Positions 4,448 through 17,508 of a stretch of 64,000 nucleotides of DNA are shown piece after piece (the stretch's first letter is position 1; every line of letters begins with the position of its first letter). The position numbers and the translations under genes were made by a program. The DNA is from Acidobacteriota bacterium (GTDB taxonomy: Bacteria > Acidobacteriota > Terriglobia > Terriglobales > Acidobacteriaceae). The notes under the pieces are model-generated. The model was not told the origin of the DNA, did not search any database, and worked only from the letters and a program-made list of their open reading frames with translations. The stretch lies in NCBI GenBank assembly GCA_003225055.1, contig QIAU01000131.1, positions 1 to 64,000 on the forward strand. The letters run 5' to 3'.

Positions 4448-5785
4448 TTATTGCTGATCCTGAACCGAACCCGTCCACCCTTCCTGACGGGCTTTGTCGA
4501 GAAGCCACTGCTCGAGTTCCCTCTCGAGCGCGGGATGTATCTCCACAAAACTCAAGCCGGCCAGGCCTCCGGGGCTGGTCCACGCCAGCTTGGCCTTGGC
4601 TTCCAGAGGAGAAGAAATTCCCGGCAAGGGCAGACTGATATCGAAGGTGGAATCATGCTTCAAGGAAGTGAGCGACCTGATTGCAATTCCGCCGGAGCTG
4701 ACATTCACAGTGGTCGCATTCACCGGCTCACCTTCGGGATCGCGAATCACGATCGGAACTTCGATGCTGACGCGGAAGTAACGTTGCTGCTGCGCGCTGA
4801 TCGTGCCCAGGGAAACGCCTCCGGATCCTTCCATCCCCAGGGCGCGATACTTCTGCAGTTTTCGCCGCAGGGTGCGGCTAGAGATTCCTAACTGCTGTGC
4901 CGCCTTGGATTGATTGCCGCCGGCCTGATCCAGAGCCTGGAAAATCATGCGCCGTTCCATGTCATCCAGATTGCCGGTAAGTGCCTGGTTGGTAGCCGTC
5001 TCCGGAACTCCGCATATAACCGCAGGCAAGTCTCTGCCGCGGAACTCATGCATGCCCGGCTTGGCATTCAGCGTAGTTTTGAAAATCACGTTCTTGAGTT
5101 CGCGAACGTTTCCCGGCCATGGGTATTGTCTGAGCGCTTCGAGGGCATCCTCGCTGAAGTGCGCGGCGGGACAGTGCTTTTTCAAAAAATGATCGGCCAA
5201 CGCGTCAATGTCCTCTGCCCTCTCGCGGAGCGGTGGTACATGCAACTGAAATTGAGTGAGCCGGTGATAGAGATCGCTGCGGAACCTGCCCGCGGTGACT
5301 TCCTCTTCCAGATTCCGGTTGGTGGCCGCGATGACCCGGACATTCACACCCACCTTCCGGCTTCCACCCAGGCGATAGTAAGGAACTCCATCTAGTACAC
5401 GTAACAGCTTGGCCTGAACCTTGATGTCCAGCTCTCCGATTTCATCCAGAAGGATCGTGCCGTGGTCAGCCAATTCAAACAGTCCTGGCTTAGTGCCATC
5501 GGCCCCGCTGAAGGCCCCCTTCTCGTATCCGAATAGCTCGCTTTCGACCAAGTGCTCGGGGAGGGCCGCACAGTTCACGTCCACAAAAGCCTTGCTGCAG
5601 CGTAAGGAATGTTCATGGATAGTGCGGGCCACTAGTTCTTTGCCGCTTCCGGTTTCGCCGACGATCAATACGGCTGCGTCACACCTGGCCACGCGCTCCA
5701 CCATAGCCATCAACTGCTGCATGACCGCACTGCGCACCACCGCAGTCGTGCCGTCGGTCAAATGCATTCGCGCCGCAGATTCCAT
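4448..5785 (-). CDS. Sigma-54-dependent activator with C-terminal PilZ domain
   Basis: An AAA+ domain begins almost at the N-terminus: Walker A GETGSGKE (about residue 43), the sigma-54 contact loop as GAFSGA (about 90, usually GAFTGA), Walker B ILLDEIGE (about 111), arginine-finger region and WPGNVREL. A Fis-type helix-turn-helix follows (GGNQSKAAQQLGISSRTLRR), then a PilZ domain from about residue 330 (RYFRV, then NVSSGGIAI). There is no receiver or GAF input domain, so the PilZ module is the only visible sensor and suggests c-di-GMP input. The frame is open further upstream to a GTG at 5869; I chose the ATG at 5785 because the conserved region starts right after it, but no good ribosome site is seen at either. 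Target promoters are unknown; the adjacent subtilases and Tad locus are candidates. Confidence 0.85.
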   Translation of the reverse strand: MESAARMHLTDGTTAVVRSAVMQQLMAMVERVARCDAAVLIVGETGSGKELVARTIHEHSLRCSKAFVDVNCAALPEHLVESELFGYEKGAFSGADGTKPGLFELADHGTILLDEIGELDIKVQAKLLRVLDGVPYYRLGGSRKVGVNVRVIAATNRNLEEEVTAGRFRSDLYHRLTQFQLHVPPLRERAEDIDALADHFLKKHCPAAHFSEDALEALRQYPWPGNVRELKNVIFKTTLNAKPGMHEFRGRDLPAVICGVPETATNQALTGNLDDMERRMIFQALDQAGGNQSKAAQQLGISSRTLRRKLQKYRALGMEGSGGVSLGTISAQQQRYFRVSIEVPIVIRDPEGEPVNATTVNVSSGGIAIRSLTSLKHDSTFDISLPLPGISSPLEAKAKLAWTSPGGLAGLSFVEIHPALERELEQWLLDKARQEGWTGSVQDQQ

Positions 5786-5944
5786 GTAGGTGGGCGCCGG
5801 TTGAGGAGAGACGCATTCTGGGCTTCTAAACCCAAAACGTGCGCATCCGGCATGCCTCTTGGTTAACACGTTTGCCCGGGCACAGGAAGGTTACTTCGGT
5901 TATCTCACCAAATGGGAGAACCGACCCTGGGTTCCCAGAACTGC

Positions 5945-5968: not shown

Positions 5969-7723
5969 CTAGTTATCGCCGTTGATGGCGATGGACATGG
6001 CCTCGGTAGTATTGTTGCCCCAAACTGCGCTATTACCCCAGACTGCGCTGTTGCCCCAAACCGCGCTGAAGCCAGTATTGTTGCCATTGCCCCAAACCGC
6101 ACTATTGCCCCAGACCGCGCTGTTGCCCCACACAGCCGAGTTTCCCCAGACCGCTGAATTGCCCCACACGGCGGAGTTCCCCCATAGCGCGGAGGCGTCA
6201 TAGACGAAACCTACGGTGTGTGAAGCTGAGTCGTAATAGACGGCGAGGGATTTAGCGGATATTTGATTGGGTACCACATCGGTGTTGTTCAGTGCGGCTT
6301 GGAGGTCCAGGTAACCGGCGCCGACCGTGAAAGCATCGTAATAATCCGTATAAGTTGTGCCCGTGGATGGGTCTGTGACGCTGCTGGAAAAAGGAAAGAT
6401 CTTGTACGCGGTCTTCATCAGCCGCGCCTTCACCTGGTCAGGCGTCAGTTGCGGCTGGGCCTCCAGCAGGTCCGCTACCCCACCGCTCACCACGGCGGCC
6501 GCCATGCTGGTGCCGCTCAAAACGTAGTATTTATCCGAATAGCCTGTCTTCCCTGTTTGGTATGACGAGAGCAGCGACCTGTTGTTGGGATAACTATGCT
6601 CCAGGGTCGCTCCCACTTGCAACGACGTCATGACATTGCCCGGCGCAACCAGATCCGGTTTCAAAATATGATCAATGCCGGTCGGACCCTTTGAGCTGTA
6701 ACTGGCCATCAGGTCGTCAGCGCGATCCGGTGTGCCCATGGTCCTCATGGCACCCACCGTGATCACATAGGGATCATTGCCCGGCGCAGTGATGGTTCCA
6801 TACCCCTGCTCGCCGACAGAGTTGTCGCGGCCATAGTTTCCGGCAGCAACGACGACCACAATGCCAGCCTTCCACGCGGATTCAACAGCTTGGCAGAGCG
6901 GGTCTTGCGTGTAGCTCTCGAAGACCGGACGTCCCAGCGAGAGATTCAGGACGCGAATGTTATACGTGCTCTTCAACTGAATGGCTTTGTTGATGGCGTT
7001 GATCACCGAGCTGTCACTGCCCTGCCCATTCTTGTCGAGGGCACGAAGATTGATGAACGTTACCTTCGGGGCAATGCCTTTAATGACCGCAAAACAATTG
7101 CTGCAGGTGGAATCCTTGCCCGTGCCGCCAATAATGCCCGCAACGTGCTCGCCGTGCCCGAAGGCGTCGCCGGTGCCTCCATCCGAAGCAAAATCGGCCT
7201 GATAGACAATGCGATTGTGGCCACTTGAATCCTTGAGGTCATCGTGGTCGCTGATGCCGCTGTCCACAACGGCTACGCCAATTCCGCTTCCGTCGTAGCC
7301 TAGGCCCCAGGCGTAAGGAGCATTGACGGCGGGAGCGGCATTGCTGAGAAGCGATTTCACCGGGCGATCGGGACTGATGTAGACCACATCGGGATCGGCT
7401 GCCAAATGCTTAAGAGCCTGGGCCGGCAGATGAAAGGCTGCTCCCCGGATTGAAGGCAGTTTCGTTATTGTGGTTCCACCCAGTTGGGCAGCCTTCGCGT
7501 AATGCTCAGCAGTGGGAATAGGACCGTACTGAACGATGACATCCAGATAGGTACCAGGCTTGACGTGCGCCAGGTCGGCAGAGAACTTCTCATACGTGTG
7601 GGAGGAACGGGCAGCTTGCGCGAACACCAGTTGCGCACCAAGCACCATCAAGACCGCAAGCCCGGTTCTCAACCTAAAACTCTTGGTGTTCTTGTAACCG
7701 AAAGCCACCGTGCCCTCCGTCAT
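5969..7723 (-). CDS. Secreted S8 subtilisin-like protease with C-terminal SAVWGN repeats
   Basis: The 584-residue protein has an N-terminal hydrophobic signal (LRTGLAVLMVLGAQLVFAQA), an I9-like propeptide region (about 45-130) and an S8 catalytic domain. The triad is Asp in VVDSGISDHDDL (about 156), His in GHGEHVAGI (about 191) and Ser in SGTSMAAAV (about 404), with the oxyanion Asn in VVAAGNYGRDN. The residue before the His is Glu where Thr is usual (GHGTH). After the protease domain, about residues 510-571 consist of SAVWGN hexapeptides, interrupted once by NGNNTGF. The protein ends NGDN with no sorting motif. It is probably exported, with the repeat tail mediating surface attachment or assembly (inference). 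A paralogue with a different repeat consensus lies upstream on the same strand. Confidence 0.9.
   Translation of the reverse strand: MTEGTVAFGYKNTKSFRLRTGLAVLMVLGAQLVFAQAARSSHTYEKFSADLAHVKPGTYLDVIVQYGPIPTAEHYAKAAQLGGTTITKLPSIRGAAFHLPAQALKHLAADPDVVYISPDRPVKSLLSNAAPAVNAPYAWGLGYDGSGIGVAVVDSGISDHDDLKDSSGHNRIVYQADFASDGGTGDAFGHGEHVAGIIGGTGKDSTCSNCFAVIKGIAPKVTFINLRALDKNGQGSDSSVINAINKAIQLKSTYNIRVLNLSLGRPVFESYTQDPLCQAVESAWKAGIVVVVAAGNYGRDNSVGEQGYGTITAPGNDPYVITVGAMRTMGTPDRADDLMASYSSKGPTGIDHILKPDLVAPGNVMTSLQVGATLEHSYPNNRSLLSSYQTGKTGYSDKYYVLSGTSMAAAVVSGGVADLLEAQPQLTPDQVKARLMKTAYKIFPFSSSVTDPSTGTTYTDYYDAFTVGAGYLDLQAALNNTDVVPNQISAKSLAVYYDSASHTVGFVYDASALWGNSAVWGNSAVWGNSAVWGNSAVWGNSAVWGNGNNTGFSAVWGNSAVWGNSAVWGNNTTEAMSIAINGDN
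6010..6195 (-). repeat. 18-bp coding tandem repeat (SAVWGN units)
   Basis: Inside the first subtilase gene, an 18-base unit encoding Ser-Ala-Val-Trp-Gly-Asn is repeated about nine times, with one spacer of roughly seven codons in the middle. Copies differ mainly at third codon positions (for example gcg/gct/gca for Ala), so the peptide is better conserved than the DNA, which argues for selection on the protein. It is not a CRISPR array: there are no unique spacers and the frame stays open. Confidence 0.9.
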
Positions 7724-7762: not shown

Positions 7763-7873
7763 CTAACTGCCCCACACCGCCGAAGCGCTGCACGCCAAAG
7801 CCAGCACGGTTACCACTGCACCTGCCAGAAGGATGTGGCCAAGTGCCTTCAATTTCTTCAAGCCTTCCTTCAT
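7763..7873 (-). CDS. Small membrane or exported peptide ending in SAVWGS
   Basis: A 36-codon ORF between the two subtilases on the same strand. It reads MKEGLKKLKALG, then a hydrophobic stretch (HILLAGAVVTVLALACSASA), then VWGS and stop. A Shine-Dalgarno-like AGGAG lies about six bases before the ATG. The layout is a Lys-rich N-terminus, one hydrophobic segment, and a last hexapeptide, SAVWGS, nearly identical to the SAVWGN unit of the adjacent protease. A Cys sits next to the small-residue stretch, so a lipobox-like site (ALAC) is possible. It could be a real short peptide working with the proteases, or the truncated head of a third VWGN protein. No family is recognised. Confidence 0.55.
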   Translation of the reverse strand: MKEGLKKLKALGHILLAGAVVTVLALACSASAVWGS

Positions 7874-7919
7874 ACTCTGCTCCTTCTCCCAGAATTTTTC
7901 TTTCCAACGTCTTTTCTAT

Positions 7920-9728
7920 CTACTGGACGCTTCCCGCATCATCGCCGAAGCCGTCGACACTCAACGCTGCGGTGCCATTTACGCTGCTGCCCCAGATGAC
8001 GGAGTTGCCCCAGATCACGCTGTTGCCGGCCAGGGTGCTATTGCCCCACACCACCGAGTTCCCCCAAATCACCGAATTGCCGCCTAGGACCAGATTGCCC
8101 CAAACCACGGAATTGCCCCAGATCACCGAGTTCCCCCAGACCACGGAGTTCCCCCAGATCACCGAATTGCCGAACAGCGCCGACAAGTTCGTCTCGAGAG
8201 AAATGGTGCCATCTGCGTTCTCGACCGCCACTGGCGAGAATGACGCCCCTTGCACCGGGTCGTTGTTGCCCATTGCCGCCGGGATGTTCAGATATCCCGC
8301 GCCCACAGTAAAAATATCGTACTGTTCCGTGTAGGTAAGCCCTGTAACCCGATCGAAGATGGTCGACTGGGACGGGAACGTCTTGTCAGCTGTCTTCATC
8401 AGCCGGCCTTTCACCGTGTCCGGGCTCAAGGCGCTGTTCTGCTGCAGCATCAACGCAGCAGCGCCACTAACCACGGGCGTGGCCATACTGGTGCCGCTTA
8501 GTGTGAAATAGCTTGGTAGAGCAAAGACACCATAGGTCAGGGGAAAGACCTCGTTGAACGGCATCAACTTGTCCAGGGTGCTGCCGGAAACCAACAGTGA
8601 CCGCATCTTGTTTCCGGGCGCCACCAGGTCGGGCTTCACGACATGATCCACCGGACTGGGTCCCTTCGAGCTGTAAGTTGCGATTTGGTCATCCGACTTG
8701 GAAGGGCTATTGCGGGTATTCATCGCGCCCACGGTGATCACAAAAGGATCATTCCCGGGGGCCCCCACGGTGCCGTATCCGTTGATACCCTGCGTGTTGT
8801 TACGGCCCCAGTTGCCGGCCGCTGCCACCACCACCAGCCCGGCATTCCACGCCGCTTCCACCGCTTGGCAAAGCGGATCTTGCGTGAAACTCTCATATAC
8901 CGAGCGCCCCAGTGACAAGTTGACAACCCGGATGTTATAGGTGGTCTTAAGCGCGACAGCTCGCTGCAAAGCGGCGATTACATAGGAATCCTGGCCTGCG
9001 CCATTGCTGTCCAGTACCTTCAGGTTGATCAAGTTTACATGCGGCGCCACACCAAAAATCAGGCCATTCGACTTTGAGCCGTTGCCGGCAATGATCCCGG
9101 CGACGTGCGTGCCGTGGCCGTAGCCATCGCGGGTATCTGTTCCGGGGACAAAGGTCTCGCTGTATACCACGCGGGATAACCCGGTGGCCGGGTCGTGCAA
9201 GTCGGGATGATCGCTGATCCCGCTGTCAATCACAGCTACGCCTATGCCGGTGCCATCCCAGCCGGCGGCCTGCTCGATATTGGCGCCTACCGTCTGCTCG
9301 GCATAGTCCGCCGCGCCGCTCACCGACCGGTTAGGTGAAATGTAGAGCACATCGGGATCTTCGGCCATCTGCGCAATGGCGCTGAGCGGGAGATCGAAGA
9401 CCTCACCCCTGATCAGCCTCAGATGGCGTATATATGTGCCGCCCAGGTTCGTCATCTTTAGCCGTTCAAGCCGGGTAGGCCGCGCTCGGAACTGAACAAT
9501 CACTTCGAGCTTCTCGTTCGCGAGCGGCGTATTCTGAGCGGCGGCTACGAGCTGCTCTAGTTCCGGAGATGTACGGTCGTCGCTGCGGCCCTTTCCCTTT
9601 GTTCCCCCCGGCCTGGCAAAGCACATGCTGGCCGACAACAGCAGCACAATCAGTCCTGCGAGTTGCCATCTCCAATTGCGGCCCTTGTTGCTTCTCTGCC
9701 AGCGGTTCGTTCTCTGGTGCTGACCCAT
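7920..9728 (-). CDS. Secreted S8 subtilisin-like protease with C-terminal NSV(I/V)WG repeats
   Basis: The 602-residue protein has a long basic N-terminus followed by a hydrophobic signal (WQLAGLIVLLLSASMCFA), a propeptide region and an S8 domain. Triad: Asp in AVIDSGISDHPDL (about 164), His in GHGTHVAGI (about 206), Ser in LSGTSMATPVVSG (about 413); oxyanion Asn in AAAGNWGRNN. Residues about 519-581 are hexapeptides of the form NSVIWG/NSVVWG with small variants (NLVLGG, NSTLAG). The ATG at 9728 is preferred over the in-frame TTG at 9746 because GGAG lies upstream of it. Roughly half the catalytic domain can be aligned by eye with the neighbouring subtilase, so the two arose by duplication and their repeat tails diverged separately. 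Confidence 0.9.
   Translation of the reverse strand: MGQHQRTNRWQRSNKGRNWRWQLAGLIVLLLSASMCFARPGGTKGKGRSDDRTSPELEQLVAAAQNTPLANEKLEVIVQFRARPTRLERLKMTNLGGTYIRHLRLIRGEVFDLPLSAIAQMAEDPDVLYISPNRSVSGAADYAEQTVGANIEQAAGWDGTGIGVAVIDSGISDHPDLHDPATGLSRVVYSETFVPGTDTRDGYGHGTHVAGIIAGNGSKSNGLIFGVAPHVNLINLKVLDSNGAGQDSYVIAALQRAVALKTTYNIRVVNLSLGRSVYESFTQDPLCQAVEAAWNAGLVVVAAAGNWGRNNTQGINGYGTVGAPGNDPFVITVGAMNTRNSPSKSDDQIATYSSKGPSPVDHVVKPDLVAPGNKMRSLLVSGSTLDKLMPFNEVFPLTYGVFALPSYFTLSGTSMATPVVSGAAALMLQQNSALSPDTVKGRLMKTADKTFPSQSTIFDRVTGLTYTEQYDIFTVGAGYLNIPAAMGNNDPVQGASFSPVAVENADGTISLETNLSALFGNSVIWGNSVVWGNSVIWGNSVVWGNLVLGGNSVIWGNSVVWGNSTLAGNSVIWGNSVIWGSSVNGTAALSVDGFGDDAGSVQ
7984..8172 (-). repeat. 18-bp coding tandem repeat (NSVIWG/NSVVWG units)
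   Basis: About ten in-frame 18-base units in the second subtilase encode Asn-Ser-Val-Ile/Val-Trp-Gly. The consensus differs from the neighbour's SAVWGN by a one-residue register and by Ile/Val alternation, while Trp-Gly is invariant in nearly all units. Two units are degenerate (NLVLGG and NSTLAG). Confidence 0.88.
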
Positions 9729-10126
9729 AGTTAAGTGACTCCGCAAACAGCCAGTCTTGATTCGCTGCGGGGAGTGTGGGACGTATTTTCAATTGCAGCC
9801 TTGATTCCATATCGCCCCAGAACCTAAATCGTTGAAAAGGTGTTGTTCACGGTGAATGCGCCCGAAAGAAGGGGGACAATCTGTCCTATAAAAGCCGTGG
9901 AAAAACCGCACCGGGACGATCTAAGCCAATCCCACTTAGCCACTTAGCCTGAAATCCTCTGGCAGCGGACAAGTTGTCCTAGCCAGGCAAAACCGCTGAG
10001 TCGGCATATTACGGACAACACGAAGGTTACTAAAGTTCTCTCCCCACCCTACTAATCGTTTGGTTTCTGAGCACTTAGTTGGTATTCAGGTATCTACCAG
10101 GCCCAGAGTCTGGATGAGGAAGGGGT
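9729..10126. other. Divergent intergenic region (398 bases)
   Basis: This lies between the divergent second subtilase (minus) and the HD-GYP protein gene (plus) and must hold both promoters. I see no ORF with a ribosome site, no tRNA and no match to the c-di-GMP riboswitch core. The right end contains AGGAAGGGG, the ribosome site for the TTG start at 10127. No confident -35/-10 pair was found. Confidence 0.5.
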
Positions 10127-12886
10127 TTGTCTAACCAAGAACAGTCGTGGCGCTACATGTCGCTGCGGGCACGCGGATTTATCAGCGTTGTCACCGCTGC
10201 CGGTGTGTGTGTGCTGGGTTGGGCCGTGCTGAATTGGTCTAGCCACGAACCGGTCAAGTTTTTCTGTTATCTGCTGGTGGCGCTTCTCGCTTCACGCCTC
10301 AAGGTTCATCTTCCCGGCATTACCGGCACGATGTCAGTCAATTTCTTATTTATTTTGTTGGGCGTCGTGGAACTCAGCCTGCCCGAAACCCTGGCCATGG
10401 GCTGCGCGGCGATTCTCGTGCAGTGCTTTCACCGCGATCGTCCTCAGTTTGTGCAAGTGGTCTTTAACGTTTGCGGATCGGCTTGGGCAGTTGCCGCTGC
10501 CTATCAGGTTTATGATCTGACCACGCTGCGCGCTCACGGTACTAACTTCTCTCTACAGCTGATTGCCGCAGCCTGCACTTACTTCGTGGGCAACACGGTT
10601 CCGGTTGCCACCGTCATTTCTCTTACCGAACACAAGTCGCTGCGCAAGATTTATTCCGAATGCTATTTCTGGTCCTTACCCTACTACTTGATGGGTGCAG
10701 GCGTTGCCGGCCTGGTGAGCTATTTCAATCGGATGGTGGAATGGCAAACCTCGCTGCTTGTTTTGCCCGCTGTTTACCTGATTTACCGGTCCTACCGGCT
10801 CTATCTCGGAAAGCTGGAAAACGAGAAGAAGCACGTTGAGGAAATGGCCAATCTGCACCTGCGGACGATTGAAGCGCTGGCCCTGGCTATCGAAGCCAAA
10901 GACCACACCACCCATGACCACCTGCAGCGGGTGCGGGTCTACGCCATTGAAGTGGCCAAGGAACTCAAACTGCCGCCTGGCGAGACGGAGGCCTTGCATG
11001 CCGCCGCCCTCCTGCACGACATTGGCAAACTGGCCGTCCCCGAGCACATCATTTCCAAGCCCGGCCGCCTCACCCCCGAAGAATTTGAGAAGATGAAGAT
11101 CCATCCCGTGGTTGGGGCGGAGATTCTGGAGCGCGTCCGCTTCCCCTATCCTGTGGTTCCCATTGTTCGCGCTCACCACGAGAAGTGGGACGGCACGGGA
11201 TACCCCCATGGCTTGAGAGGCGAAGAGATTCCCATGGGCGCCCGCATTCTGACCGCCGTCGATTTTCTGGACGCCTTGTCTTCCGATCGCCAGTACCGCC
11301 GCGCCATTCCCCTGCAGGAAGTCATGTCCCGGTTGAACCAGGAGTCGGGCAAGTCATTCGATCCGAAAATCGTGGAAGTTCTCCGGCGCCGATACCTGGA
11401 CATGGAGAGACTGGTACAGCGGCAGACGCAACAAGTAGAGTGGTCGAAGCTTTCCACGGACGTTAAAGTTGAACGTGGAGAGGCGCCGGCCACCGGTTTA
11501 ACCCATTCCGAGGAACGACAGCAATCCAATGAAGCCACCTTTCTGGCCTCTATTGCTGCTGCCCGGCAGGAAGCTCAGGCTCTCTTTGAGCTGAGTCAAG
11601 ACCTCGGCGCTTCTCTCAGCTTGGGCGAAACCCTGTCCGTCTTTTCGGTGAAACTTAAGCGACTCGTTCCCTACGATTCGATCGCGATCTACATTCGCCG
11701 CGATGACCAGCTGGTTCCCGAGCACGTCAGCGGGGACAACTTCCGCCTCTTCGCGTCCTTGCGCGTTCCGGTGGGCGCTGGCGTCTCCGGCTGGGTTGCG
11801 CAAAATCGTAAGCCGATGATTAATGGCAACCCTTCGGTTGAGCCCGGCTACTCCACCGACGGCGGCAAATACACGACCATGCGCTCCGCCCTGGCCGTAC
11901 CTCTGGAAGGCCTGGATGGCGTCGTCGGCGTCCTCACGCTTTATAAGTTGGAAAAAGATGCCTTCACCGCGGACCATTTGCGCGTTCTGCTGGCAGTCAG
12001 CTCTAAGATGGCCCTCTCCATCGAAAATGCTCTTAAGTACCAGCAGGCTGAAAGCTCCGCGACGACTGATTATCTGACGGGACTGCCCAACGCCCGCTCG
12101 TTGTTTCTACAACTGGACCGCGAGTTGGCGCGCTGCAAGCGGAGCAAGTCCACTTTGACGGTGATGGTCTGCGACATGGACGGCTTTAAGCAGATCAACG
12201 ATCGCTTCGGACACCTCGAAGGTAATCGCGTCCTCAAGCTATTTGCCCAGCGATTGAAGGAAAGCTGCCGCGAATACGACTATGTAGCCCGCATGGGTGG
12301 TGACGAATTCGTTGTCGTTGCTCCCGGTCTCACCGCCGACGCGTCACGGGTCAAGACTTTGACGCTGCGCGAGATGGCCAAGAAAGCCGGCTTCGAAATT
12401 TGCCGCGAAGATATTCTTTCCCTCAGCATCGGTCAGGCCGTTTACCCGGAGAACGGACTGGACGCGGAGGAATTGCTGGCGGAAGCCGACCGGCGCATGT
12501 ATCTCGAGAAACAGCAGCAACCCTGGCGCAAGAATCGTCGTTCCCAGCCGCGCCTCGTGTGTCGCGTCACGGTCACTCTACAGCCTGAAGGCAGCACCGT
12601 TCCGATTCTCGGCAACCTGTCCAATATCAGCCTGACTGGCGGCTATGTCGAGACCGGCGCGCTCCTGCAATCGGGCGCACGGGTCAGGATCTTTTTTTCG
12701 TCTGAAGACAACAGCCTGCAAAACGAAGGCACGGTGGCGCGCAGCAATCCTGGATCGGGTGTCGGTATCCAGTTCTCCGACTCGGAAGATCGCGACAAAA
12801 TGCACCGTATTCTGGCACACGTGGAGAGTGCTACCAAGTTTTACGACCGCGAACTGGGCTACATTGCCAGGATGGTCGCGCATTAA
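10127..12886 (+). CDS. Membrane c-di-GMP enzyme: HD-GYP, GAF, GGDEF and PilZ in one chain
   Basis: The 919-residue protein starts at TTG preceded by AGGAAGGGG. Residues about 15-225 contain six or more membrane helices (MASE-like sensor). An HD-GYP phosphodiesterase domain follows (about 235-430: LLHDIGKLAVPEHI and HHEKWDGTGYPHGLRGEEIP). A GAF domain occupies about 480-640. A GGDEF cyclase domain has an intact MGGDEF (about 724), a RxxD product-inhibition site exactly five residues upstream (REYD-YVARM-GGDEF), and the ending YPENG then AEADRRMY. A C-terminal PilZ domain (about 803-919) has NISLTGGYVETG. Synthesis, breakdown and binding modules of the same second messenger therefore sit in one polypeptide. 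Both catalytic signatures look intact; which activity dominates cannot be told from sequence. Confidence 0.93.
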   Translation: MSNQEQSWRYMSLRARGFISVVTAAGVCVLGWAVLNWSSHEPVKFFCYLLVALLASRLKVHLPGITGTMSVNFLFILLGVVELSLPETLAMGCAAILVQCFHRDRPQFVQVVFNVCGSAWAVAAAYQVYDLTTLRAHGTNFSLQLIAAACTYFVGNTVPVATVISLTEHKSLRKIYSECYFWSLPYYLMGAGVAGLVSYFNRMVEWQTSLLVLPAVYLIYRSYRLYLGKLENEKKHVEEMANLHLRTIEALALAIEAKDHTTHDHLQRVRVYAIEVAKELKLPPGETEALHAAALLHDIGKLAVPEHIISKPGRLTPEEFEKMKIHPVVGAEILERVRFPYPVVPIVRAHHEKWDGTGYPHGLRGEEIPMGARILTAVDFLDALSSDRQYRRAIPLQEVMSRLNQESGKSFDPKIVEVLRRRYLDMERLVQRQTQQVEWSKLSTDVKVERGEAPATGLTHSEERQQSNEATFLASIAAARQEAQALFELSQDLGASLSLGETLSVFSVKLKRLVPYDSIAIYIRRDDQLVPEHVSGDNFRLFASLRVPVGAGVSGWVAQNRKPMINGNPSVEPGYSTDGGKYTTMRSALAVPLEGLDGVVGVLTLYKLEKDAFTADHLRVLLAVSSKMALSIENALKYQQAESSATTDYLTGLPNARSLFLQLDRELARCKRSKSTLTVMVCDMDGFKQINDRFGHLEGNRVLKLFAQRLKESCREYDYVARMGGDEFVVVAPGLTADASRVKTLTLREMAKKAGFEICREDILSLSIGQAVYPENGLDAEELLAEADRRMYLEKQQQPWRKNRRSQPRLVCRVTVTLQPEGSTVPILGNLSNISLTGGYVETGALLQSGARVRIFFSSEDNSLQNEGTVARSNPGSGVGIQFSDSEDRDKMHRILAHVESATKFYDRELGYIARMVAH

Positions 12887-12909
12887 GCTAAGATATCGCC
12901 GGCATCCCC

Positions 12910-12944
12910 CGCCGGCTGTCGCGAGGACGTTTCGCCCTCGCCTT
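12910..12944 (+). repeat. 35-bp intergenic palindromic repeat, copy 1
   Basis: This sequence matches 38427-38461 at 32 of 35 positions. It contains the hairpin GCGAGG-(9 bases)-CCTCGC. Both copies lie in short gaps between same-strand genes, shortly before a ribosome site (GAAAGG, then CTCC). It is a dispersed REP-like element of unknown function. Confidence 0.75.
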
Positions 12945-12970
12945 CACTTCTTTCGAGAAAGGCCTCCGGA

Positions 12971-13831
12971 TTGCGTCAATTGGCAAAACACGTTGCAATC
13001 ATCCTGGTCACGGTCCTTCTTGGCGGACTTCTCGGTGCCACCCTGATTCGCTTTGCCCCCGGCTACGGCGTGGATGAGCAAGAGCTGGACGCTCGTTTGA
13101 GTGCCGGCAGCATTGAGGCGCTACGCCGCGCGAGTGCTCCTGATGAGAATCTATTCCTCTTCTACGGCCACTACCTCAAGCGGATGGTTCACGGGGACTT
13201 GGGAACCTCCCGCACTCTTCAGCGCCCCATTGCGCAACTGCTGCGCGAGCGCTTGCCCGACACCATGAAGTCAGTCGGACTTGGAGCGCTGCTGGGCTGG
13301 GCCCTCGGGCTGGCCTTGGCAATTCCAGTAGCGATGTCGCGCGCTTGGCTGGTCGATGCGCTCGCCAGTGTGATGGCAGGAATCTTGCTTTGTATCCCGG
13401 TGGCGGTTCTGGCACTGCTCTTCGTGCTGACACGTGCGCCCGCGCGCTTGGTCATTGCGCTCATTGTTTTCCCCAAAGTCTTTCGCTATGCCCGCAACTT
13501 GCTGGTACGAAGCGCCGCCTTGCCTCACGTGCTCACAGCTCGCGCCAAGGGTTTGAGCCATGCCGGCGTGTTTGTTTGGCATGTTTTGCCCCTGGCGGGA
13601 GCACAACTTCTAGCGCTGGCCGGGGTTTCGGTCAGCCTTGCCTTTGGGGCCTCCATCCCGGTCGAAGTTGTCTGCGATCTGCCTGGAATTGGCCAACTGG
13701 CTTGGAAGGCTGCTCTCGGACGCGACCTGTACCTGCTTATTAATCTGACGATGATGGTGGCGGTCGTGACCCTGGCGGCGAACTCCGCTTCCGACCTCTT
13801 GGGTGGCGCATTCGGCAGGAGCGAAGCATGA
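12971..13831 (+). CDS. ABC transporter permease, DppB/OppB type
   Basis: The 286-residue protein starts at TTG after a GAAAGG ribosome site. It has about six membrane helices. The N-terminal extracytoplasmic region contains YLKRMVHGDLGTS, typical of the DppB/OppB permeases, and the coupling helix region is RAKGLSHAGVFVWHVLPLA, the EAA loop. It would form half of the inner-membrane channel for peptide- or nickel-type solutes. Its stop overlaps the ATG of the next permease by four bases (ATGA), implying translational coupling. The substrate cannot be read from the permease. Confidence 0.88.
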   Translation: MRQLAKHVAIILVTVLLGGLLGATLIRFAPGYGVDEQELDARLSAGSIEALRRASAPDENLFLFYGHYLKRMVHGDLGTSRTLQRPIAQLLRERLPDTMKSVGLGALLGWALGLALAIPVAMSRAWLVDALASVMAGILLCIPVAVLALLFVLTRAPARLVIALIVFPKVFRYARNLLVRSAALPHVLTARAKGLSHAGVFVWHVLPLAGAQLLALAGVSVSLAFGASIPVEVVCDLPGIGQLAWKAALGRDLYLLINLTMMVAVVTLAANSASDLLGGAFGRSEA

Positions 13832-14634
13832 AATGGGTGCGTCGGGCAGCGATTATTTTTCTTCTTGCCGTCGCACTGGCCTGTGTCTTCGCCGAACGGC
13901 TTGCTCCCGCCGATTATGCGCATCAGTTCCGTGATATTCCGGATGCTCCCGCTTCTGCTGCCCATTGGCTCGGGACGGATGACTTGGGACGCGACCGTTT
14001 CTCGCGCGTTTTGCATGGAACGCGAATCTCGCTGCTGCTGGCCCCGGCCGCCGCGTTGATCGCAAGTTTCCTGGCTGCGGTGGTCGGAGGAACGGCTGGC
14101 TTTGTAGGTGGCGCGCTCGAGCGTGCGGTCATGTCGGGCACGGACCTGTTTCTCTCGCTGCCCTGGTTCTTTTTGTTAATCACGGTCCGGGCTCTGATGC
14201 CGCTGAATGTCTCGCCCATCACGTCGGTGATCATCACTTTTGCCCTGTTGGGTTGTCTGGGGTGGGCGGCGGCGGCCCGCGTTGTCTGTGCCGACGCCAG
14301 GTCCCTGAAGAACTCTGATTTCGCCCTCCAGGCGAGGGCTTCCGGAAGCAGCGGATATCGTCTGCTGCGTCATCATCTCTTGCCCAATCTCCGGCCAGTT
14401 CTTTATGCCCAGTTCTGGATTTCGATTCCGGTTTTTATTTTGACGGAGGCCAATCTTGGAATTCTGGGCCTCGGCGTCTCCGAACCGTTGCCCTCCTGGG
14501 GGAGCCTGCTGCGCGAACTGGAAGGCTATTCCTCCGTTACCTCCAACGCCTGGCAATTCGCTCCTCTGCTGTTATTCATTTCGGTCGTCAGTTGTTTTCA
14601 CCTCGTCGTGCTCGATCGGGAGTTACCTGCATGA
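13828..14634 (+). CDS. ABC transporter permease, DppC/OppC type
   Basis: The 268-residue protein shows the DppC/OppC N-terminal pattern: one helix, then HWLGTDDLGRDRFSRVLHGT, a hallmark of this family. It is followed by further helices and the EAA loop (LQARASGSSGYRLLRHHLLP). It pairs with the upstream permease and overlaps it at the start and the solute-binding-protein gene at the stop, both with ATGA junctions. This gives a tight permease-permease-binding protein operon. Confidence 0.9.
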   Translation: MKWVRRAAIIFLLAVALACVFAERLAPADYAHQFRDIPDAPASAAHWLGTDDLGRDRFSRVLHGTRISLLLAPAAALIASFLAAVVGGTAGFVGGALERAVMSGTDLFLSLPWFFLLITVRALMPLNVSPITSVIITFALLGCLGWAAAARVVCADARSLKNSDFALQARASGSSGYRLLRHHLLPNLRPVLYAQFWISIPVFILTEANLGILGLGVSEPLPSWGSLLRELEGYSSVTSNAWQFAPLLLFISVVSCFHLVVLDRELPA

Positions 14635-16253
14635 GCAAACGCTGGTTCGCATCGCTTTTCGTAATGGTCCTTACCCTGGGCTCCGCCACCGCTCAGTCCG
14701 GGACGGAACTGCGGTTCTGCCTCTGGTCCGAACCCAAGACTTTTAATCCGCTCCTCGTCCAGGACGATTCCTCCGAGACCGTCCGCTATCTGACCGGGGG
14801 CGTGCTGGTGCGCTTGAACCGTCAGACTCAGCAGCTTGAGCCAGAATTGGCAACGGCTTGGAAGACCAGCAGGGATGGCAGGACGATCACGTTCGCGCTG
14901 CGCCAGAACGTAAAGTTCTCAGACGGCACAGCGTTTTCCGCTGAAGATGTCGCTCACACAATTCAGCAAATGATGGACCCGAATCTGCACTCACCCACCG
15001 GCGATTCCTTCCGTTCCGGCGAAGGCAAGGTGGAAACCAAGGTCCTGTGGGCCGACAAGATCGCAATCCTTTTCCCGGCCCCCATTGCCGGCCTGGACAA
15101 ATTGTTTGATCAGGTAGCGATCATGTCGGCCAAGTCGCCGAAGAAAGAAAGGGCCGTGCTCGGACCGTATTATGTCGCCGAGTACAAGGCCGGGTCTCAC
15201 TTAAACCTCGAGCGCAACCCGAACTACTGGAAGCACGACTCCTCCGGACATCAACTGCCCTACATTGATTCGGTCCGCCTCGATATCCAGCAGAATCGCG
15301 ACATCGAAATCCTGCGCCTCCTGCGCGGAGAAATTCATCTCGTTAATTCGCTGAACGCGGAATATTTCGACAAAGTCATCGCGGAGAAGCCCGCGCTCGT
15401 GCACGATGCCGGCCCTTCGATGGACTCCGAGCAGATCTGGTTCAATCAGGTGGCGAGCGCGCCTCTTCCCGCCTACAAGAAGGCATGGTTCGGTTCCACC
15501 AATTTCCGGCGCGCCATTTCAGAATCAATCAACCGTGAGGATCTCTCCCGCGTCGTCTTTCGCGGACACGCTCGTCCGGCCACAGGCCCTGTATCTCCAG
15601 GGAATCAATTCTGGTTCAACACCAGGCTGCAACCGCATCCGTTCGATCAGAAGGCGGCCATGAAACGGCTCGAGCAGGACGGCTTCCGGGTGCAAAATGG
15701 CGCGCTGCGCGATAAAGACGGAAACGCCGTTGAGTTTTCGGTGGTCACCAACGCCGGCAACAGGTATCGCGAGCGCATGGCCACCATGATTCAACAGGAC
15801 CTTGCGGGCATTGGCATTAAGCTCCACGTTGTCACTCTCGACTTCCCTTCTCTCATCGAACGCATCGCCCGCACGTTTAATTATGAGGCTTGCCTGCTCG
15901 GCGCGGTGAATATTGGACTTGATCCCAGCGAGCAGATGAATATCTGGCTGAGTTCGGCGGAAAACCACCAGTGGAATCCGGGACAGAAGGCCCCTGAAAC
16001 AGCCTGGGAGGCGGAGATCGACCGCCTGATGCGGGCTCAGGCTTCTGAATTGAATGAGAAGAAAAGAAAGGAATACTTCGATCGCGTCCAGGAAATCGCT
16101 TGGGAGCAGGAACCCTTCATTTATTTGGTGAACAGAAATGCGTTGTCGGCTATCTCGACTTCGGTGCAGAATGCTCACCCGGTGGTGCTGCGGCCCCAGG
16201 TTTTCTGGAATATTGATCGGCTAAGTTTGGGTTCCGAGGTCGCGCAAAAATAA
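14631..16253 (+). CDS. Periplasmic solute-binding protein, SBP family 5 (peptide type)
   Basis: The 540-residue protein starts at the ATG overlapping the previous stop; the longer frame from 14592 lies inside the upstream gene and is less likely. A signal peptide (MSKRWFASLFVMVLTLGSAT) is followed by the family-5 pattern: LTGGVLVRLNRQTQQLEPELA, then FALRQNVKFSDGTAFSAEDV and LNLERNPNYWK. The length is normal for DppA/OppA-like proteins. It delivers an oligopeptide or similar ligand to the two permeases encoded upstream. No lipobox Cys is evident, so it is probably a soluble periplasmic protein. Confidence 0.9.
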   Translation: MSKRWFASLFVMVLTLGSATAQSGTELRFCLWSEPKTFNPLLVQDDSSETVRYLTGGVLVRLNRQTQQLEPELATAWKTSRDGRTITFALRQNVKFSDGTAFSAEDVAHTIQQMMDPNLHSPTGDSFRSGEGKVETKVLWADKIAILFPAPIAGLDKLFDQVAIMSAKSPKKERAVLGPYYVAEYKAGSHLNLERNPNYWKHDSSGHQLPYIDSVRLDIQQNRDIEILRLLRGEIHLVNSLNAEYFDKVIAEKPALVHDAGPSMDSEQIWFNQVASAPLPAYKKAWFGSTNFRRAISESINREDLSRVVFRGHARPATGPVSPGNQFWFNTRLQPHPFDQKAAMKRLEQDGFRVQNGALRDKDGNAVEFSVVTNAGNRYRERMATMIQQDLAGIGIKLHVVTLDFPSLIERIARTFNYEACLLGAVNIGLDPSEQMNIWLSSAENHQWNPGQKAPETAWEAEIDRLMRAQASELNEKKRKEYFDRVQEIAWEQEPFIYLVNRNALSAISTSVQNAHPVVLRPQVFWNIDRLSLGSEVAQK

Positions 16254-16377
16254 TACGGTGGTCATTGTGACCAGCGGACCGTCAGTTGCTGTCATTCCCA
16301 GACGCTTCCGCGCCGAGGAATCTGGGTTTTGTTTGGCTTGGCGCATGTTGATTCGAGTTTAGGGCCCTGAGGACATT

Positions 16378-17196
16378 GTGGACACAACCGACCTCCTATT
16401 GAAGCTTCGCCTGAGCGCCGGCTACCCGGGCAAACCGGGCGTCTTGCAGCACCTTGCCCTCGATATCAATCCTGGGGAAATCGTCGGGCTGGTGGGTCAA
16501 AGCGGCTGCGGCAAAAGCACGCTGGCGTTGGCGATCCTAAAGCTTCTTTACCTGAAAGGCGCGAGCGCCGAGGGCTACGTTCACTTTAACGGCCGTGACC
16601 TGATGGTCCTCAAAGAACGCGAGATGCGCAAGCTGCGCGGAAAGGAGATCGGCCTGGTTCTGCAGAGCCCCATCTCATCCCTCAATCCCGCGCTCAAGAT
16701 CGGGACGCAATTAAAGGAAGCCTGGAAGGTCCATGCTCGTGGGACCCGCGATGAACGCCAGCAGGCGATTGCGGAAGCCATGAGAAACGTGAGCTTGCCC
16801 GAGGAAAAAGACTTTCTGAAACGTCGTCCCTCCCAGCTGAGTGTTGGCCAGGCGCAGCGGGTGCTCATTGCGATGGCGATCCTGCACCGGCCTTTGCTGC
16901 TCATCGCCGACGAGCCGACCAGTGCCCTCGACCTGATTACCCAATCAGAAATCTTGAAGCTGTTTGTCAGTCTCAACCGGAACCTCGGTATGAGCATTCT
17001 GTACATCTCCCACGACCTGCTTTCCCTTGCCACCATCAGCCAGCGCGTGGCTGTAATGGACAGGGGCACCATCGTGGAATGCCGTGCCACCGAAGAAATC
17101 TTCCGCACACCCAGCCATCCCTATACTCGGCAACTCGTACGTGCACTGCCGGTCGCCCCGCAAACCGTCGCGGCCGCTGCTAGGGCGGCTCTATAG
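16378..17196 (+). CDS. ABC transporter ATPase, DppD/OppD type
   Basis: The 272-residue protein starts at GTG. It has Walker A GQSGCGKST (about residue 40), a Q-loop in GLVLQSPISSLNP, signature LSVGQAQRV (usually LSGGQ, so the second position is Val), Walker B LLLIADEPTSALD and a switch His in YISHDLLS. The C-terminal TPSHPYTRQLVRALP is the oligopeptide-transporter extension. It lies 124 bases after the binding-protein gene, presumably in the same operon. Most Dpp/Opp systems have a second ATPase (DppF); none follows here, so this one may act as a homodimer or with an ATPase encoded elsewhere. Confidence 0.88.
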   Translation: MDTTDLLLKLRLSAGYPGKPGVLQHLALDINPGEIVGLVGQSGCGKSTLALAILKLLYLKGASAEGYVHFNGRDLMVLKEREMRKLRGKEIGLVLQSPISSLNPALKIGTQLKEAWKVHARGTRDERQQAIAEAMRNVSLPEEKDFLKRRPSQLSVGQAQRVLIAMAILHRPLLLIADEPTSALDLITQSEILKLFVSLNRNLGMSILYISHDLLSLATISQRVAVMDRGTIVECRATEEIFRTPSHPYTRQLVRALPVAPQTVAAAARAAL

Positions 17197-17202
17197 CGGG
17201 GC

Positions 17203-17270
17203 GAGAGAGAAGAAGGAGAAGAAGGAGAAGAAGGAGAAGAAGGAGAAGAAAGAGAAGGAGGAGGGAGGAG
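17203..17270 (+). repeat. 68-base homopurine tract with GAAGGAGAA units
   Basis: All 68 bases are A or G on the plus strand. The middle contains about four to five tandem GAAGGAGAA units, with degenerate flanks. It starts seven bases after the stop of the ABC ATPase gene. Mirror-like homopurine runs can adopt triplex structure; here it may simply be a slippage product. Confidence 0.85.
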
Positions 17271-17508
17271 CACAACAGTTAGTTAGTGTGCAAGCCTGGT
17301 TGCTGGTCATTGAGCCGATCTGCCAGTGGTCCTCAACCCAGACGGATGCGATTAAGCCCTGCCGCGACTTTACTCCGGCGTTGACGTCTCCCCGACGGGC
17401 AAACAGGTTAAAGTTCTCGGTTCATACCTTTTGGATAGGGAGGTTGACCACGACGGGATGGAGATACACGCTGTGACCAGCATTAGCGAAGATTAAAGCG
17501 ATGAGTCG

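Follow-up and report, generated by a model that had tools for sequence, protein, structure and literature searches.

A 36-codon open reading frame (ORF) lodged between two S8 subtilases in a member of the Acidobacteriaceae encodes, to judge from its conservation, a real microprotein, and its relatives appear to constitute an undescribed family of small genes that the annotation libraries searched (Pfam and NCBIfam) have missed. The microprotein is strictly linked to one part of the tree of subtilases with VWGx-repeat tails, and a conserved micropeptide that is tied to a protease and accompanied by an oligopeptide transporter and c-di-GMP enzymes makes the locus a candidate peptide-signalling system in Acidobacteriota.

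A small gene between two subtilases

The window, i.e. the whole stretch of 64,000 nucleotides of contig QIAU01000131.1 that we analysed, carries the features collected in Table 1. A first-pass annotation had pointed to an overlooked ORF between two VWGN subtilases, with a good ribosome-binding site, a lysine-rich start and one hydrophobic segment, and all of these features are borne out. The ORF runs from an ATG at 7873 to a stop ending at 7763 and its product is MKEGLKKLKALGHILLAGAVVTVLALACSASAVWGS; the ATG is preceded by gggagaaggagcagagt, in which AAGGAG is followed by a six-base spacer, the lysines of the start are K2, K6, K7 and K9, and the single hydrophobic stretch reaches its best 15-residue Kyte-Doolittle mean, 2.73, over residues 14-28. 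The three genes stand in a tight row, with 46 nt between the stop of the 608-aa subtilase and the microprotein gene and 39 nt between the latter and the ATG of the 584-aa subtilase. Consensus scans recovered no promoter-like site in the region. Terminator-like sites are absent from the minus strand inside the row, and one lies just past its last gene; such sites number 5 in the region against a shuffle mean of 3.9, which is near random. No Pfam family matched the window's microprotein and no NCBIfam family matched three microproteins that included it.

Table 1. Features of the microprotein locus in the window
Feature	Position	Strand	Remarks
Sigma-54 activator with C-terminal PilZ domain	4448..5869	minus	conserved neighbour
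584-aa S8 subtilase, SAVWGN tail	5969..7723	minus	PF00082 E 1.7e-49; different clade
36-aa microprotein ORF	7763..7873	minus	basic N-terminus, hydrophobic segment, C-terminal ASAVWGS
Ribosome-binding site region gggagaaggagcagagt before the microprotein ATG	7874..7890	minus	
608-aa S8 subtilase, SVIWGN/SVVWGN tail	7920..9746	minus	PF00082 E 4.8e-54; cognate partner by tree and gene order
MASE9-like membrane domain (below Pfam cut-off)-HD_5 (HD-GYP type)-GAF-GGDEF-PilZ protein	10127..12886	plus	divergent, conserved neighbour
Oligopeptide-type ABC permease 1 (BPD_transp_1)	12971..13831	plus	
Oligopeptide-type ABC permease 2 (BPD_transp_1)	13828..14634	plus	
Family 5 solute-binding protein (SBP_bac_5)	14592..16253	plus	co-distributed with VWGx subtilase
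ABC ATPase with oligo_HPY C-terminal region	16378..17196	plus	

Distribution of the microprotein family

A search of 61 related genomes with the 36-aa peptide alone recovered only the query itself below E 0.2 and no convincing relative, a result that by itself would make the ORF look like an orphan. Loci fetched by way of the subtilase held three further small ORFs ending in SAVWGS. A DNA pattern was run on 398 genomes of the family and 39 regions, chosen from the matches listed, were then read; the choice required a Ser codon (G001:C225 has Arg) and a true stop, as against Thr and other endings. Beside a subtilase, 14 of these regions contained a total of 16 microprotein-type ORFs; in the remaining 25 no subtilase was found and none had an ORF ending in ASAVWGS, and these 25 regions, of 3-8 kb each, serve as control loci below. 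A profile built from 16 members detected 24 places at E≤2e-6, in 20 of the 398 genomes and in eight genera, all 24 of them adjoining a VWGx-repeat S8 subtilase; two more matches, at E 0.009, resemble noise. Nothing convincing emerged outside the family in even but incomplete draws at the level of the class (399 genomes: seven places at E≤2.4e-7, all inside the family, the next at 0.009) and of the phylum (396 genomes: the window alone at E≤0.005).

Presence is patchy within genera: in g67 six of nine genomes have a profile match, and the same-genus genome G001 has none anywhere. The conserved ORF in relatives that the first-pass annotation had proposed to look for thus exists across eight genera, though it is absent from the one same-genus genome compared. 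In that genus the locus L011/L013 has an orthologue of the 584-aa subtilase and no small ORF. A scan for hydrophobic basic small ORFs within 400 nt, considering ATG starts only, found none in 21 microprotein-free neighbourhoods (23 subtilases), and as a positive control it recovered the microprotein in 16 of 22 loci carrying one. Two short-form microproteins (see below) stand in tandem in G092 and in G165.

Sequence conservation and selection

The microproteins are 33-44 residues long, lengths that depend on our choice of starts, and follow a common plan of a basic start, a hydrophobic middle and ASAVWG plus one variable residue. In 23 sequences the net charge before the best hydrophobic 15-mer is +2 to +4 and the mean hydropathy of this 15-mer is 1.73 to 2.91; the N-terminal part is conserved mainly as basic and hydrophobic, as in export signals. 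The ending ASAVWG is identical in 24 of 24 microproteins, an invariance that rests on the profile matches since the pattern behind the 23-sequence codon set itself requires ASAVWG, and the last residue is S, N, G or A. In G200 an extra Cys follows the ending, and in G270 the stop after ASAVWGS is lost to TTG and the frame continues for at least 20 residues (G270:C432:7017-7145, L190).

Within the ending of the 23 sequences the two Ala residues use all four codons, Ser both TCN and AGC, and Val and Gly three codons each. Of 16 pairs compared, the 15 with a usable dS all have dN below dS, as exemplified by G074/G153 (0.057 vs 1.07) and the window's own microprotein with G165_1 (0.41 vs 1.31); the G015/G074 pair is saturated. 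On this codon-level evidence selection acts on the protein sequence of the microprotein, and the profile counts, the codon evidence and the controls together make the ORF more than a product of chance.

Two forms can be recognized. In the short forms (33-36 aa) the ending comes right after the hydrophobic segment, with 5-9 residues from the hydrophobic stretch to the V, while in the long forms (41-44 aa) a linker, for example NLSSPQVKHALSAV, separates the two and the corresponding distance is 17-22 residues. Relative to the cognate subtilase, the short forms are downstream in g1 (the window), g15, g66 and g84; in g24 they are upstream, as are the long forms of g29, g67 and g71. We rejected a lipoprotein, as a Cys just before the ending occurs in only 5 of 23 sequences (the window's own, G092_1, G165_1, G172 and G192) and there is no conserved lipobox Cys.

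The cognate subtilase and its repeat tail

The first-pass annotation had equated the terminal SAVWGS with the SAVWGN unit of the neighbouring protease. The two agree at five of six positions, and the likeness, which is to the 584-aa protein, points to the wrong neighbour; the tail units of the 608-aa protein are SVIWGN/SVVWGN plus one SVIWGS. We built a tree of 55 VWGx subtilases, labelled by whether a microprotein is lacking, upstream or downstream. The label requires 4 changes against a shuffled mean of 18.4, and none of 200 shuffles reaches 4, with near-copies adding to the clustering. The 608-aa protein forms a clade with those of G015, G165, G074 and G153, each of which has a microprotein just downstream, and with a fifth companion on contig C500 of G001, which shows none in the 729 nt that remain visible on the contig. 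The 584-aa protein groups with its G001 orthologue (C521/L011), which lacks the microprotein, as does every other member of that part of the tree. This grouping makes the SAVWGN likeness misleading, and we rejected the 584-aa protease as the partner; the tree and the order of the genes identify the upstream 608-aa subtilase as the cognate one. Subtilases in sister clades are without a microprotein, and in the wider cognate clade none was seen at L027, L030 and L031; the same holds for L024, whose frame begins late, and L163 is truncated at the 5' end. Since G001 and most of the VWGx subtilase loci that we saw lack the microprotein, the protease can evidently work without it.

An A-x-A before the V is found in all 24 microproteins, as A-S-A, compared with 5 of 362 tail units of the 55 subtilases (there counted before V, I, L, M or F followed by WG). 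The microprotein ending would thus not be simply a copied tail repeat, and A-S-A is what might be expected for a role in processing.

Asp, His and Ser of the usual subtilase motifs, which we take to be the catalytic residues, are invariant in an alignment of the 608-aa and 584-aa proteins and the L011 relative. Both proteins fall below the cut-off of every NCBIfam S8 model listed, the best being mycosin, and their prodomain matches are likewise below cut-off (19.3 and 18.6 bits for the 584-aa, 12.7 bits for the 608-aa protein). The subtilase adjoining the microprotein falls into two frames in L197 (G092) and L195 (G015), owing to a frameshift or an assembly error, and in L165 (G007:C23, 2789-4610) the repeat tail has an ambiguous codon and a frame break, for which repeat slippage or misassembly is conceivable. 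Many VWGx subtilases (L011, L021, L110, L147, L166 and others) have a short acidic end after the repeats, such as GEN, GED, GEE or GDDDGE, possibly a sorting or capping element.

The 608-aa tail matched Hexapep at E 0.027 (14.6 bits, cut-off 27) and the LpxD profile at E 0.012, also below cut-off. An AF2 model of the full-length protein was too poor for use (mean pLDDT 34), and five models of the tail alone disagree, with mean pLDDT from 58 to 36. The best of these five is all-beta, its block means lying at 60-75 pLDDT for residues 21-90; Foldseek returned 89 fold matches for it, the best at E 0.42 and none at E≤0.001, and 17 of the first 30 of these 89 are, as we take it, left-handed beta-helix proteins. 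The all-beta model, these fold matches and the weak profile matches together make a beta-solenoid tail a plausible prediction.

The wider gene neighbourhood

Whether or not the microprotein is present, VWGx subtilases of many genera repeatedly have as neighbours a MASE9-like/HD-GYP/GGDEF/PilZ sensor gene, the four genes of an oligopeptide ABC transporter and the gene of a sigma-54/PilZ activator (window 10127-17196; loci L200-L239). We compared 41 loci of 7-20 kb, several of them cut by contig ends, 20 with and 21 without the microprotein; the former cover 18 of the 20 genomes, with G245 and G356 left out for their short contigs and G270 counted as having the microprotein. The MASE9-like domain is present in 18 of the 20 and 16 of the 21 neighbourhoods, respectively, either fused to HD-GYP/GAF/GGDEF/PilZ or as a separate gene of ~242 aa just downstream of the subtilase. 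The stand-alone version shares 43% identity with the window's domain; three such genes (L192:8124-8852, L193:7926-8663 and L188:5040-5777) match no Pfam family above cut-off. At least three of the four transporter genes occur in 10 of 20 neighbourhoods with and 8 of 21 without the microprotein, and the transporter hence failed as a microprotein-specific partner. The 25 control loci, which are shorter, gave no MASE, SBP5 or S8 match and one distant match each to EBP and OppD. In G154, G231, G181 and G200 the genes are arranged as sensor, OppB, OppC, SBP5, OppD, microprotein, subtilase.

Among 61 relatives (G000-G060) 14 have the binding protein (E≤1e-150) and 14 the subtilase (E≤1e-60): 13 have both, 1 and 1 have one alone and 46 have neither, so that both occur in 13 of the 15 genomes with either (Fisher p 3e-11, not corrected for phylogeny; the table was tallied by hand with these differing cut-offs, and G034 passes narrowly at 45% identity). 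In 18 further genomes with the microprotein, the binding protein is present in 16 at E≤1e-100 and in 15 at ≥53% identity. It is missing from G356 and G153, G245 has no more than a 38% relative, and in the g71 genomes binding protein and microprotein are on different contigs. As the binding protein tracks the subtilase, and the transporter occurs at loci with and without the microprotein, the transporter belongs to the subtilase system as a whole, to which one section of the tree has the microprotein as an addition.

In three of five g71 genomes (G079:C43, G156:C50, G201:C130) the binding-protein match runs across one TGA, and in G181:C197 and G270:C432 across one TAG, which may reflect decay, an assembly error or recoding. 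A further ORF, marked by a KKE-rich run (window 17084-17476), overlaps the end of the transporter ATPase gene.

Possible functions of the microprotein

The reading that we favour, tentatively and at somewhat less than even chances, is an exported pre-peptide with a VWGx ligand end, Phr-like in its logic. The basic start and hydrophobic segment suggest that the microprotein would be inserted by Sec in an N-in orientation that leaves its ASAVWGx end outside, and this short end would carry the function. A-S-A before V fits the signal peptidase I consensus, and in the short forms this enzyme might cut between A-S-A and V to leave VWGx; in the long forms the end could be trimmed by the neighbouring subtilase or another protease. 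As the hydrophobic stretch of the long forms ends so far before the V, their A-S-A is probably part of a recognition motif or used by another protease. Once released, the VWGx-containing peptide would serve the locus as a ligand, which the oligopeptide transporter would take back up or the MASE9-like c-di-GMP protein would sense; the VWGx unit repeated in the cognate tail may share its receptor. We infer all of these steps, from export and cleavage to the ligand role and the receptor. The secreted peptide of the first-pass annotation survives to the extent of a conserved, by prediction probably exported, small peptide tied to VWGx subtilases. Against the pre-peptide stand the 17-22 residues of the long forms, which seem too far for an ordinary signal peptidase cut, yet their A-S-A is invariant; the frequency of transporter and MASE9-like genes at microprotein-free subtilase loci (8/21 and 16/21); the G001 cognate-clade subtilase without a microprotein; the scan of nine window neighbours, among which no RRNPP-type TPR receptor was found; and the lost stop in G270.

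It is possible, if rather doubtful, that the microprotein instead stays in the inner membrane (N-in, C-out) and that its single SAVWGx strand docks onto, or caps or nucleates, the cognate hexapeptide-repeat tail, tethering or organising the protease at the cell surface. The SxVWGx unit common to peptide and tail, the strict link to one part of the subtilase tree and the linker of the long forms would all suit such a dock, as would the below-cut-off Hexapep and LpxD matches and the all-beta tail model with its left-handed beta-helix matches; a fibril-assembling S8 protease is known in Vpr (PMC10657474). However, the microprotein units differ systematically from the cognate tails (ASAV vs xS[VL][VI]), most VWGx subtilases seen do without such a peptide, and the tail models disagree among themselves while the full-length one is poor. 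The operon-like 46-nt spacing and the clade-specific pairing could also speak for a microprotein devoted to the neighbouring subtilase as its substrate, as its inhibitor or as an aid to its activation, and PMC10657474 describes Vpr cutting the C-terminal pentapeptide from PhrC; but sister-clade subtilases lack the peptide and the proteases may have their own pro-region, weak as the prodomain matches are, and we regard this role as unlikely.

A leader ORF that regulates the next gene by being translated, with no role for its product, would account for the position directly upstream of the subtilase in g71, g67, g29 and g24, and in the window the ORF also precedes the 584-aa subtilase. We rejected it as very improbable: in four of the eight genera (g1, g15, g66 and g84) the ORF is downstream of its cognate subtilase, and the end is conserved in amino acids, not in bases. 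The lack of the microprotein in a same-genus genome and the failure of the peptide alone to find a convincing relative in 61 genomes might be taken to indicate a chance ORF or, as the first-pass annotation had considered, the stub of a third repeat protein. With 24 copies in eight genera beside the same neighbours, dN below dS, no ASAVWGS ending in the 25 subtilase-free pattern regions and no comparable ORF in the 21 microprotein-free neighbourhoods, by a scan that recovers 16 of 22 true loci, chance is a negligible prospect, and the recurrence of the same conserved small gene with the same end under purifying selection rules out a stub or decayed repeat protein.

Returning to the exported pre-peptide, a bolder and in our estimate improbable extension is that VWGx is an extracellular peptide signal of Acidobacteriota. 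The microproteins would be its single-copy precursors, and the subtilase tails, with the same unit in tandem, would store it, dock it or act as a decoy; a dedicated oligopeptide importer and the MASE9-like c-di-GMP sensor of the same locus would read the signal. If so, protease, signal, importer and second messenger would be one circuit. The microprotein would offer a purpose for the VWGx repeat tails, and its family hints at a new peptide-ligand or docking system. Bacillota are the best-known setting of peptide signalling via oligopeptide-permease import.

Comparison with known systems

Among the matches listed, no literature title or abstract concerned VWGx repeats or such microproteins, a text search on such peptide signalling in Acidobacteriota returned no paper uniting all four terms, and the text of PMC2447325 has no occurrence of the VWGx unit. 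A Paenibacillus proteusin (RiPP) precursor in a table of PMC11594732 ends in NAVWGN, probably by chance.

Both window neighbours score far above the cut-off of the S8 subtilases (PF00082), but they lie under that of all NCBIfam S8 models listed. With the hexapeptide left-handed beta-helix proteins (PF00132, LpxD) the 608-aa tail shares a six-residue period with an aliphatic residue and Gly; unlike them, the VWGx tail has a Trp in nearly every unit and is joined to no acyltransferase. Vpr, as described in parts of PMC10657474, is an extracellular S8 peptidase that forms fibrils and cuts a signal precursor, features that recall the present system, whereas those parts describe no VWGx tail or linked microprotein for it.

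The closest parallel in logic is with the Phr/RRNPPA systems as portrayed in PMC11343458, which likewise names Bacillota as the group where peptide signalling with oligopeptide-permease import is best known. There Phr propeptides have a Sec leader and pass signal peptidase and extracellular proteases (Bpr/WprA; Epr/Vpr in earlier work cited there) to yield a C-terminal pheromone taken up by Opp; one pathway can thus combine a small precursor exported by Sec with extracellular proteases and an oligopeptide permease, and tandem pheromone copies occur. The microproteins differ in their length (33-44 aa vs 50-120 for Phr), in having no RRNPP receptor next door in the window and a repeat-tailed subtilase as partner, and in their candidate sensor, of MASE9-like/HD-GYP/GGDEF type, and host, Acidobacteriota rather than Bacillota. 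They resemble Phr in the basic and hydrophobic export-type start of 23 microproteins, with predicted export, in a conserved short C-terminal end, which in Phr is the active part, and in a precursor gene beside its partner, in a system to which an extracellular protease and an oligopeptide permease belong.
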